Assembly (NCBI GenBank): GCA_903889915.1
Contig: CAISZK010000284.1
Span: forward strand, 1-34,990
Source of the DNA: an uncultured Bacteroidota bacterium
GTDB lineage: Bacteria; Bacteroidota; Bacteroidia; Bacteroidales; CG2-30-32-10
Direction of reading: 5' to 3'
Length of the DNA stretch: 34,990 nucleotides
Shown here one piece after another: positions 1 to 29,560 of this stretch. Under the pieces are notes generated by a model, which searched no databases, was not told where the DNA came from, and saw only the letters and a program-made list of their open reading frames with translations. The position numbers and the translations under genes are program-made. The first letter of the stretch is position 1, and each line of letters starts with the position of its first letter.

Positions 1-118
1 ATTCCCCTGCTTTACATTTTACATTTCCCGTCACTTTTACATTTTACATTCCCCTGCTTTACATTTTACATTTCCCGTCACTTTTACATTTTACATTCCC
101 CTGCTTTACATTTTACAT
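1..118. repeat. 47-bp tandem repeat, about 2.5 copies
   Basis: The block beginning ATTCCCCTGCTTTACATTTT recurs at 1, 48 and 95, so the period is 47 bp. Copies 1 and 2 are identical as far as I can read, and the third is cut at about 118. Each unit itself contains smaller words (TTTACATT, CCCCTG, CCCGTCA). The block lies just downstream of the minus-strand kinase gene and may extend left of the window. No coding potential is evident. Confidence 0.9.
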
Positions 119-128
119 TAACTTTTAA

Positions 129-25652: not shown

Positions 25653-25658
25653 TTGATC

Positions 25659-25706
25659 CAAGTCTCAAGATCCAAATTCCAAGATCCAAATTCCAAATTC
25701 CAAGAT
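25659..25706. repeat. 14-bp word repeat downstream of ftsZ
   Basis: AGATCCAAATTCCA is repeated back to back, with partial copies on either side (AAGTCTC and AATTCCAAGAT). It is short, AT-rich and non-coding, between the ftsZ stop and the terminator. Confidence 0.7.
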
Positions 25707-26491: not shown

Positions 26492-27751
26492 ATGAACATC
26501 AGTACTTTTAAAGCATTCCACAACCGCAATTACAGGCTGTATTTTTCCGGACAATCTGCATCGCTTATTGGAACATGGATGCAGCGCACCGCTGTTTACT
26601 GGCTCATTTATGTGCAAACGCACTCCACATTTATGCTGGGTTTGGCTGTATTTGCAACACAGTTCCCTTCTTTCCTTTTCTCGCCTTTGGGTGGTGTAAT
26701 TTCTGACAGGTATAACCGCTATAGTGTTTTGCTTTTCACACAAATTGCCTCCCTTATTCAGACAATTTTGCTCATGGCATTTGTGATGTTCACTGATTAT
26801 ACCGTATGGGAAATTTTTGCACTAAGTGTAATGCTCGGTATCATCAATGCCTTTGATGTGCCTGCGCGGCATTCGATGGTGAATGAGATCATCGGAAAGA
26901 AAGAAGATCTTCCGAATGCCATTGCACTTAATTCATCCATGGCAAACCTTGCAAGGATGATAGGTCCTGCTTTGTCGGGTATCGTCCTCGAAGAACTGGG
27001 CGCCGGAGTTTGCTTCATGATAAATGCATTGAGTTTTCTGGCAGTGATCGTATCCTTATTATTCATGCGGTTTCCCGAATTTGTTCCCAATCCTCATACA
27101 AAAAAAGTGTTCAGGGAATTTAAAGAAGGATTCAAATATTTAAGGCATACTCCATCCATCAGTTTTGTGATCTTATTGCTGGCGAGTGTGAGTTTGCTTG
27201 TGCTCCCGTTTATCACGCTGCTTCCCGTTTATGCGAAGGTAATTTTCATGGGCAATGCTTCGACTTTTGGGTACCTCAACAGCTTTATAGGTGTGGGTGC
27301 AATTGGTGGTGCGTTCTTCCTTGCATCATTGAAAACAGGCGCTAATCTGAAAAAGATACTGTTCATCAATCTTGTGATCTTTGGTGTTGCGCTGACTTTG
27401 TTTTCGCACATGACCAATTTCCCGGTTGCCTTGTTCTTTGTGATGTTTGCAGGCTTCGGGATGATGTCGCAGTCAACCATCAGCAACACCATCGTACAAA
27501 CCAATGCATCGGCCGAAATGCGCGGAAGGGTGCTTAGCTATTTTGCGATGGCATTTTTTGGAATGCAGCCTTTGGGCGGGCTTTTGATCGGCACGGTTTC
27601 GCAGTATATCGGAGCGCCAGACACCATACTGGCGGAAGGTATTGCAGCCATCCTGATCGCTGCTATCTTTCTACTTATTCTCAGGAAAAACAGGTTGAAA
27701 GTGAAGGATAAAATAGTCAATGGTCAATCGTCAATAGTCATTTGTCAATAG
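26492..27751 (+). CDS. Major facilitator superfamily transporter (MFS_3/EntS-like)
   Basis: The 419-residue polytopic protein begins with FKAFHNRNYRLYFSGQSASLIGTWMQ, a hallmark of the MFS_3 branch that includes the enterobactin exporter EntS. The loop 2-3 signature appears as GGVISDRYNRY. About twelve hydrophobic segments are seen. A further conserved block around residues 125-160 contains DVPARHSMVNEI and IALNSSMANLARMIGPALSG. It probably exports a small molecule using the proton gradient; the substrate cannot be inferred. The last seven or so residues are encoded by a heptanucleotide repeat, suggesting the original stop was lost or displaced. No operon partner is evident. Confidence 0.9.
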   Translation: MNISTFKAFHNRNYRLYFSGQSASLIGTWMQRTAVYWLIYVQTHSTFMLGLAVFATQFPSFLFSPLGGVISDRYNRYSVLLFTQIASLIQTILLMAFVMFTDYTVWEIFALSVMLGIINAFDVPARHSMVNEIIGKKEDLPNAIALNSSMANLARMIGPALSGIVLEELGAGVCFMINALSFLAVIVSLLFMRFPEFVPNPHTKKVFREFKEGFKYLRHTPSISFVILLLASVSLLVLPFITLLPVYAKVIFMGNASTFGYLNSFIGVGAIGGAFFLASLKTGANLKKILFINLVIFGVALTLFSHMTNFPVALFFVMFAGFGMMSQSTISNTIVQTNASAEMRGRVLSYFAMAFFGMQPLGGLLIGTVSQYIGAPDTILAEGIAAILIAAIFLLILRKNRLKVKDKIVNGQSSIVICQ

Positions 27752-27764
27752 TCATTTGTCATTG
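27716..27764. repeat. Heptanucleotide tandem repeat, seven units
   Basis: Seven consecutive 7-nt units start at 27716: GTCAATG, GTCAATC, GTCAATA, GTCATTT, GTCAATA, GTCATTT, GTCATTG. The first five form the end of the transporter gene and its stop codon. The later units supply the left arm and loop of the following hairpin. Confidence 0.85.
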
Positions 27765-27793
27765 GCTAATGACTATTGATAAATGACTTTTTT
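27737..27793 (+). terminator. Hairpin with T-tract after the MFS gene
   Basis: GTCATTTGTCAATAGTCATT (27737-27756) pairs with AATGACTATTGATAAATGAC (27768-27787), 19 of 20 positions matching, with an 11-nt loop and then six T residues. It overlaps the last codons of the transporter and ends directly at the ATG of the next gene. It could terminate the transporter message or occlude the next start codon. Confidence 0.65.
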
Positions 27794-28375
27794 ATGGAAC
27801 AGAACAAAATTAATCAAAACACAGCCCTGCTGGTGATGGATGTGCAGGTGGCAACAGTGAAAATGCTGGAGAATAGTGAAGTTTTTTTTCATTCTCTGCA
27901 GAAAGCAATTCAAACGGCGCGCAACAATAAAATGCCGGTCATTTATGTGGTGGTTGGCTTTAGAAAAGGTTATCCTGAAGCAAGCCCGGACAACAAGGCT
28001 TTTTCAGGAATAAAAGAGAGAGCAGTGAGCTTCGACACGGAAGAGGCTTCCAAAGTTCATGAATGGGTGGCGCCATTGCCCGACGATATTGTGGTCACTA
28101 AAAAAAGAGTAAGTGCTTTTACGGGTAGCGACCTCGAGGTGGTACTGCGGTCGCTCGGAATAAAACACCTGGTGCTGACCGGAATTGCCACCAGCGGAGT
28201 GGTGTTGTCAACAGTGCGTGAAGCGGCCGACAGGGATTATATCCTCACTGTTCTTTCTGATTGTTGTGCCGACAGAGATGAGGAAGTGCACCGAGTTCTT
28301 ACAACCAAAATTTTTCCGCGACAGGCGGATGTAATGAGTGCGGATGAATGGGCCGGAACGTTTAAGAAAATTTAA
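27794..28375 (+). CDS. Isochorismatase-fold protein lacking the catalytic cysteine
   Basis: The 193-residue product has the cysteine hydrolase/isochorismatase-like alpha-beta fold. The general-acid Asp16 (LLVMDVQ) and Lys103 (TKKRVSAF) of the usual Asp-Lys-Cys triad are present. The nucleophile position, Cys in TxxCV of active amidohydrolases such as nicotinamidase or RutB, reads TSGVV at 133-137, so Val136 replaces it. From memory, a subgroup of relatives reads TSGVVLSTVR here, so this looks like a lineage property rather than a sequencing error. Function is unknown: a non-hydrolytic role or a different nucleophile is possible. The frame extends upstream to a TTG at 27776, but that is within the terminator stem; the ATG at 27794 is preferred. 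Confidence 0.88.
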   Translation: MEQNKINQNTALLVMDVQVATVKMLENSEVFFHSLQKAIQTARNNKMPVIYVVVGFRKGYPEASPDNKAFSGIKERAVSFDTEEASKVHEWVAPLPDDIVVTKKRVSAFTGSDLEVVLRSLGIKHLVLTGIATSGVVLSTVREAADRDYILTVLSDCCADRDEEVHRVLTTKIFPRQADVMSADEWAGTFKKI

Positions 28376-28492: not shown

Positions 28493-28811
28493 TAAAAATT
28501 GCAATTCCCCAATTTCTAAGAATATCCCTGAAGGGATTTCATGTTTATAGCAAAGATGTTGCGCCGGGAGTTAGTTACTATAAACATTTGAATTCTTTGG
28601 ATTCATCGTTGCTTTAGGTTTGACAAACTTTTAAAGTTTGTCAAACCATAGGAACTCAATAGTTATTTATTATGAAATAATTCAATAACTATCAACGGTC
28701 AAGCTCGCCTTTGTTATTTTAGAGCGGGTAAAGTAATATGAAAAGATTTAGAATTTTCTAAAAATCCAATCCGCATTTTACTATACTCTACTCTCCCAAT
28801 GGCTTACGACG
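28493..28811. other. Gene-free region with four palindromes
   Basis: About 320 nt without a convincing gene. It contains the stem ATCCCT/AGGGAT (28524-28537), a 10-bp inverted repeat ATGTTTATAG/CTATAAACAT (28541-28550 and 28578-28587), a 15-bp perfect palindrome (28617-28647), and ATAGTTATT/AATAACTAT (28659-28667 and 28684-28692). The remainder up to 28811 shows no clear signal. Confidence 0.7.
28617..28647. repeat. 15-bp perfect inverted repeat
   Basis: GGTTTGACAAACTTT (28617-28631), one central T, then AAAGTTTGTCAAACC (28633-28647). The stem is perfect and symmetrical. No T-tract follows, so it is more likely an interspersed palindromic repeat or protein-binding site than a terminator, although it could end transcripts from the left. 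Confidence 0.85.
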
Positions 28812-29273
28812 TTGATTGAAGAGACTAGAGCATTGATTGAAGAGACTACAGCATTGATTGCAAAGGGTACAGCATTGACCGAATTGACTACAGCATTGAC
28901 CGAATTGACTACAGCGATGTTCGCATTGACTACAGCGATGACCGCATTGGGTACAGCGATGGCTGAATTGACTACAGCGGTGTTCGCATTGACTACAGCG
29001 ATGGCTGAATTGACTACAGCGTTGACCGAATTGACTACAGCGATGTTCGCATTGACTACAGCGATGACTGCATTGACTACAGCGATGAACGAATTGACTA
29101 CAGCGGTGTTCGCATTGATTACAGCGATGTTCGCATTGACTACAGCGTTGACCGAATTGACTATAGCGGTGTTCGCATTGACTACAGCATTGACCGAATT
29201 GACTATAGCGGTGTTCGCATTGACTACAGCGATGAACGCAAAGAGTACAGCATTGATTGCGGAGAATACAGCA
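28812..29273. repeat. Array of 22 tandem 21-bp units without indels
   Basis: The stretch divides exactly into twenty-two 21-bp units. Typical units end in TTGACTACAGCG or TTGACTACAGCA. The first base varies (A, T or G before TG), bases 4-6 take one of about six triplets (ATT, ACC, TTC, GCT, AAC, ACT), and base 8 is A or C. Bases 16-20 (ACAGC) are nearly invariant. Edge units differ: the first three and last two carry AAG or GAG where the core has TTG. Decayed units continue on the right to about 29315. Because 21 is divisible by three, several frames on both strands remain open. Confidence 0.95.
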
Positions 29274-29279
29274 TTGTAG
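28812..29279 (+). CDS. Possible heptad-repeat protein encoded by the 21-bp array
   Basis: Read forward from the TTG at 28812, the array gives 155 residues in 22 heptads of the pattern (L/M/V)-x-(A/E)-L-T-T-A, with a stop right after the last unit. Position 1 is always Leu, Met or Val and position 4 mostly Leu, so hydrophobic residues alternate at 3 and 4 spacing as in a coiled coil; the rest is mainly Thr and Ala. The end heptads carry Glu and Lys. There is no ATG before the repeats, no ribosome-binding site and no family match. The minus strand offers a rival open frame (28781-29353) of 190 residues with an ATG outside the array. Either may be a by-product of the repeat period. Confidence 0.25.
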   Translation: MIEETRALIEETTALIAKGTALTELTTALTELTTAMFALTTAMTALGTAMAELTTAVFALTTAMAELTTALTELTTAMFALTTAMTALTTAMNELTTAVFALITAMFALTTALTELTIAVFALTTALTELTIAVFALTTAMNAKSTALIAENTAL

Positions 29280-29457
29280 GTAAAATGTAATGAATTGAAT
29301 GCGGAGAGATAAAATACGAATGCAGTAGATGTGGGGGTCACTGTAATAATCACCTGTTTATTCTAAGAAAAGTGAATTCTTATTTAAAACATTTGAAGGT
29401 TCATAGAAAAGTATGAGTAAAATTACACACACGATACTTAATAAAATTCTGTGAGGG

Positions 29458-29546
29458 GTGACGGGGCGACTACTTCCTGTCACCCCGTCACTCAGCTATC
29501 GGTTTATTAAGGACTGACGGGGTGACGAGAAAAAGTCGCTCCGTCA
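29458..29546. repeat. Paired GACGGGG palindromes
   Basis: GTGACGGGG (29458-29466) pairs with CCCCGTCAC (29483-29491), 9 bp perfect. TGACGGGGTGAC (29515-29526) pairs with GTCGCTCCGTCA (29535-29546), 10 of 12 positions. The two hairpins share the same core, are GC-rich in an AT-rich setting, and lie 23 nt apart. They resemble a two-copy palindromic repeat element. Confidence 0.75.
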
Positions 29547-29560
29547 GGTTGGCAGGCTAT

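Follow-up and report, generated by a model that had tools for sequence, protein, structure and literature searches.

Between two converging genes of a Bacteroidales MAG lies a tandem array whose units differ from one another in sequence and never in length, and it raises the question of whether such DNA encodes a repetitive protein, provides a set of regularly spaced sites or is ordinary satellite DNA. The array was analysed within a stretch of 34,990 nucleotides (the window), which is contig C284 of an assembly of 5.55 Mb in 476 contigs. Taken together, the results presented below suggest that it is a stray member of a module, made of a gene and its repeat array, that has not been described before. 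The features of the locus are as follows.

27776..28375, + strand: left neighbour, isochorismatase-like hydrolase, stop toward the array
28805..28820: 16 bp matching the C39 array exactly, in inverted orientation, at its gene-side edge
28812..29273: whole array, 22 x 21 bp, consensus (A/T/G)TG-NNN-G(A/C)ATTGACTACAGC(G/A)
28812..29279, + strand: 155-aa open reading frame spanning the array, called mechanically and not considered a gene
28812..28874: left edge, units 1-3, GAAGAG / GCAAAG type
28875..29231: core, units 4-20, ATTGACTACAGC type, 63-bp higher-order pattern
29232..29273: right edge, last two units (21-22), similar to the left edge
29366..29418: inverted counterpart of the other C39 array flank, 53 bp at 83% identity
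29799..30638, - strand: right neighbour, Por secretion (T9SS) C-terminal domain protein, stop toward the array

Structure of the array

Unit-by-unit reading and Tandem Repeats Finder (period 21, 0% indels) both gave 22 units of 21 bp at 28812-29273 without a single indel, exactly as described in the original prediction, which had been made from the letters of the sequence. The array thus belongs to a class defined here by a fundamental period of 20 or 21 bp without indel. Columns 2, 3, 7, 12, 15, 16, 18, 19 and 20 of the unit are invariant and column 17 has three exceptions among the 22 units, in agreement with the almost fixed bases 16-20 noted at the outset. The triplet at bases 4-6, for which about six values had been announced, takes six (TTC 7, ACC 6, ATT 4, GCT 2, AAC 2, ACT 1), and the first base is T in nine units, A in nine and G in four, the three bases expected. 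The proposed division into core and edge classes was also recovered: the first three and the last two units are unlike the core and like each other, as expected where edges retain older sequence. A decayed unit or two may follow the right edge (29274-29315).

The 22 units comprise 16 variants, and no two neighbours are identical. Identical units recur at distances of 2, 4 and 6, and Tandem Repeats Finder detected a 63-bp higher-order period (score 524, far above chance). Both observations suggest block-wise copying, which would explain the differing neighbours; the units of this array probably spread as multi-unit blocks. The similarity structure (the 63-bp period and the gradient from core to edge) is a trait of the minisatellite type.

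Some further sequences of the window were recorded. Two dispersed palindromes lie upstream of the array: the one at 28577-28605 recurs at 97% upstream of the array of contig C453, and the one at 28616-28645 resembles a palindrome near the array of C440. The interval between the array and the T9SS-tail gene contains inverted-repeat-rich GACGGGGTGACG sequence (29440-29560). The contig end (window 1-119) carries a tandem repeat of 47 bp that also terminates contig C3 (L028 6016-6141), suggesting that the assembly breaks at a repeat common to several loci.

Coding potential

An open forward frame of 155 aa crosses the array, with hydrophobic residues spaced 3 and 4, and a secondary similarity at lag 9/12 is found in several arrays of the class; both would fit a heptad-repeat (coiled-coil) protein, one of the possibilities raised originally. 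We consider this reading barely credible. The frame has no ATG start, and its 155-aa translation gave no Pfam match. Codon changes between neighbouring units were non-synonymous in 60 cases and synonymous in five, so that the comparison proposed in the original prediction speaks against protein constraint, and they fell mainly on codon positions 1 and 2 (35/43/13 for positions 1/2/3). The statement that both strands stay open is correct for frames +1, -1 and -2, three of the six, and fails as evidence: column-permuted copies had 1.5 open frames on average and 17% of them reached at least three (P = 0.17), so these frames carry little weight. Over 42 arrays of period 21, the mean number of open frames was 1.83 versus 1.53 after permutation, no more than chance. 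Sister arrays hold stops or have a period of 20, some arrays have no open frame at all, and a heptad repeat is not encodable by the six arrays of period 20. A coding heptad repeat was consequently rejected; the window array belongs to a distinct class of non-coding DNA.

Higher-order tandem arrays have been described as prokaryotic satellites, whose long units in multiples of 3 were read as coding (Subirana and Messeguer 2019, PMC6749651). The arrays studied here share the tandem and higher-order organisation; unlike those satellites, they are non-coding, include 20-bp forms and are tied to gene families.

A sister array and the tandem repeats of the genome

The only DNA relative of the window array in its own genome is an array on contig C39 (73% over 319 bp, inverted), and the array DNA had no match in 60 relatives. 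The C39 array is located 73 bp upstream of a gene encoding a 299-aa helical protein ending in a CarboxypepD_reg-like domain. Similar genes on C360 (protein 54% identical to that of C39) and C8 have arrays 124 and 309 bp upstream. In the window, neither a helical + FN3 gene nor a helical + CarboxypepD-like gene was found (HMM for the FN3 type; tblastn), and the isochorismatase neighbour had no orthologue close enough for a locus comparison. Based on the same step, the lack of indels, the sister beside a family gene and the lack of such a gene in the window, the window array is probably an orphan of a gene-linked class, a relic.

The genome is rich in tandem repeats. In a sample of 523 kb of randomly chosen contigs, 80 of the 126 arrays with a period of up to 126 had a period that was a multiple of 7, and intergenic autocorrelation peaked at lags 7, 14, 21 and 42. 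Short intergenic repeats of period 7/14/21 (AATAGTC, TCCAAAT, others), the type dominating the tandem repeats of the genome, also occur in the window at 25655-25706 and 27712-27765. This spectrum suggested an origin from 7-bp heptamers, which was discarded: the large 21-bp arrays form a separate class without 7-bp sub-period, their sequences being mostly unrelated, and identity at lag 7 in the window array is 0.27 versus 0.25 expected. Published heptamer repeats (TAACTGA, PMC4679880; GGGAATC, PMC4692102) are likewise intergenic and tandem, and 7/14/21-bp runs are abundant in this genome too, but the window array and most 21-bp arrays lack their 7-bp sub-period. A recognised family gene is missing beside roughly half of the large arrays that were sampled in the genome. 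Arrays of 20 bp instead of 21 bp, equally indel-free, were observed in the window's genome and in other taxa (L075 3943-4315, L047 6740-6988, L208, L216).

Linkage of the arrays to two gene families

Two gene families, encoding helical + FN3 and helical + CarboxypepD-like proteins, have arrays of period 21 (or 20) beside them. A search with one FN3-type member gave 34 matches in the window's genome. The downstream sequence was long enough for a judgement in 27 members, and in 23 of these an array begins 82-534 bp past the stop codon. Of the 281 ordinary ORFs of random contigs, 5 are followed by such an array at a distance of up to 550 bp (Fisher P = 6e-26). The array class is thus not independent of the gene families, and the window copy is a member without a family gene nearby. 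The four members lacking a downstream array were two gene fragments and the genes of C401 and C77. In 3 of the 23 linked arrays a higher-order period (126, 63 or 40/80) prevails over a weak 20/21 step. The FN3-type members of C161 and C314 have their array 120-140 bp upstream instead.

Homologues in genomes G001, G003, G004, G007, G033, G043, G068 and G097, which include other families of the same order, also bear 20/21-bp arrays, mostly upstream; the side therefore varies, being downstream for most FN3 genes of the window's genome (G000) and upstream elsewhere. In G003, a relative of the same family, protein and array are identical to those of a MAG named Marinifilum; other relatives or matches included Paludibacter and further Bacteroidales. 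GTDB genomes were then scanned for FN3-type loci by the protein pattern alone, blind to the arrays (MAG names as deposited), and 55 loci were obtained in Bacteroidota, Methylococcaceae, Verrucomicrobia, Acidobacteria, Planctomycetes and others. The best lag at 50-650 bp upstream was 21, 42 or 40 in all 17 Bacteroidota loci and in 15 of the 22 loci from other phyla, and the mean excess identity at lag 21 was 0.196 and 0.076, respectively, versus 0.018 at 900-1450 bp upstream. CarboxypepD-type homologues elsewhere had a 21-bp array upstream in 7 of 10 cases. The carriers identified include the cultured Niastella vici and Methylobacter psychrophilus. These gene-linked arrays form one class, each with the sequence of its own locus, adjoining genes for small two-domain proteins in several phyla.

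Only one of the upstream regions examined had a promoter motif of the Bacteroidota type (TAnnTTTG) between gene and array. The FN3-type protein had no match in phages and plasmids, and the open-access literature yielded nothing relevant on a 21-bp array tied to FN3 genes.

Proteins encoded beside the arrays

AlphaFold2 models of the FN3 type, based on 38 homologues, predict a helical N-domain (helices 15-30, 42-60 and 64-92) followed by a C-terminal beta-sandwich (mean pLDDT 88, pTM 0.51). This C-domain is FN3 by sequence and fold. For the helical part of both families, no named family was among the top matches in the libraries searched, and PHROGs gave weak matches of FN3 type only. A DNA-binding domain was not recognisable in either family, and the array-adjacent proteins tested gave no PADLOC match.

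The many paralogues per genome, the patchy distribution across phyla, the duplicated flanks around C161/C314 and C270/C330 and the palindromes in many arrays would fit a mobile unit, in which array and gene move together and the array is a site of transposition or recombination, as REP palindromes are for RAYT transposases. REP/BIME elements are indeed also palindromic, multicopy repeats beside a small gene; unlike them, the arrays have no HUH/Y1 transposase, keep a strict 20/21-bp tandem step and are locus-specific in sequence. We regard a mobile unit as improbable: neither family has a nuclease or transposase domain, the array can be on either side of the gene, and flank homology runs past the array into the gene and its neighbourhood without common ends.

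Length constraint and turnover

The fundamental period of 48 arrays was 21 in 42 and 20 in six. On average, 30% of the bases differ between neighbouring units, and 455 of the 461 unit steps have the exact length. In alignments of paralogues, the flanks that can be aligned show one gap opening for about every 18 substitutions, so that the deficit of indels in the arrays is roughly 30-fold. Indels do not accumulate alongside substitutions in this class, contrary to an ordinary minisatellite (VNTR). The original argument that slippage alone is insufficient, drawn from the lack of identical neighbours and of indels, is supported, and the lack of indels recurs in these 48 related arrays. The fixed 20/21-bp step and the missing indels also suit both of the non-coding options listed at that time, phased binding sites and a diversified non-coding array.

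The almost invariable length of exactly 21 (sometimes 20) bp suggests a function at the DNA level: as the arrays do not code for protein, their indel deficit is most simply explained if a spacing of two B-DNA turns is what counts. Alternatively, units may always be copied whole, and the fixed length may have a purely mutational origin.

Sequence turnover was followed in several pairs. Different arrays are found between conserved genes and flanks in the paralogues L219/L224 (Verrucomicrobia), L209/L210 (Bacteroidales) and C161/C314. Swapping is not universal, as C270/C330/C370 keep similar arrays. In the orthologous pair L223/L228, from different MAGs, the array is colinear with 85% identity and one gap, like neighbouring intergenic DNA; random turnover with indels in relatives, which the original prediction counted among the marks of an ordinary minisatellite, is not the pattern of the relatives. 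L219 and L224, whose arrays differ completely, have 8-bp repeats GCCGTTCC at the outer flank.

An ordinary non-coding minisatellite, changing by unequal exchange or template switching in blocks, would be functionless, with its fixed length reflecting whole-unit copying. Satellite turnover typically leaves diverged edge units and higher-order periods such as the 42/63/84/126 seen here, and both the general abundance of tandem repeats in this genome and the missing partner gene of the window copy agree with it. It does not predict the linkage to two gene families across phyla, nor a near-identical period in unrelated sequences with about 30-fold fewer indels per substitution than the flanks, and we judge it unlikely for the class. 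The window array itself, having neither cognate gene nor palindromes, may be simply a relic or a plain minisatellite.

Palindromes and the RNA alternative

Arrays beside FN3-type genes fold better than their column-permuted copies (mean z -2.1 sense, -2.4 antisense), and about half to 60% of them have individually significant palindrome potential. This potential is absent from the window array (z +1.2) and from its C39 sister (+0.35). Inverted repeats, enriched in many arrays, were therefore dismissed as a universal feature, being absent in the window array.

Strong hairpin potential beside FN3-like genes, units about as long as many guide RNAs and a sequence peculiar to each locus would be compatible with a transcribed structured or guide-like RNA, with the 20-21-nt units acting as hairpins or small RNAs. 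This is a very unlikely explanation. The antisense strand folds as strongly as the sense strand, and the lack of strand preference points to palindromes in DNA rather than RNA; an Rfam search of the window gave no match, neither family supplies a nuclease partner, and the window array has no hairpin potential. CRISPR/TIGR guide arrays also combine constant and variable segments beside a gene, but the arrays described here have no unique spacers, their unit is 20-21 bp, and no Cas or Nop-domain protein was found by Pfam or PADLOC among the array-adjacent proteins tested.

Proposed role of the arrays

The best explanation of the whole, to which we give about even chances, is that the arrays are gene-linked, phased cis DNA elements of which the window copy is an orphan. 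As putative cis-acting elements they would be read as double-stranded DNA. A step of two helical turns would place all units on one face of the helix, along which an oligomeric protein could bind; indels would break the helical phase and be removed. The unit sequence could drift or be replaced freely, making the array a locus-specific tag for its gene, used in regulation or in cognate recognition as with plasmid iterons or centromeres, and the neighbouring protein possibly recognises its own array. Copies would spread via duplication of multi-unit blocks. The window array would have lost its gene and now be decaying at its edges.

Plasmid iterons and partition centromeres consist of direct repeats in tandem, with units of about 17-22 bp spaced by nearly two turns of the helix, adjacent to a gene and with replicon-specific sequence. 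The arrays resemble them in being tandem direct repeats of about two turns beside a gene, with their own sequence at each locus. Unlike them, they are chromosomal and numerous in each genome, and their proteins are helical + FN3/CarboxypepD-like, not Rep or Par: no Rep- or Par-type gene was found beside the arrays, the adjacent families matching FN3, CarboxypepD_reg or nothing. Cognate binding is a proposal here.

More tentatively, and as a less probable extension, the arrays and genes might make up a module conserved among prokaryotes. Each small helical + beta-sandwich protein would then have a phased array of its own as the address of its locus, to be read by the protein itself or by a partner that senses structure. 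This would amount to a new addressing, partition or regulation system across several phyla.

If the cause of the fixed length is mutational, it would point to a copying process exact in length while 30% of the bases change. If the linkage to the two gene families reflects function, the arrays would represent a DNA element widespread among bacteria, its step fixed at two turns and its sequence free to change, and apparent junk satellite DNA would become a testable system, through the questions of whether each protein binds its own array and why the arrays of close paralogues within a genome often differ.
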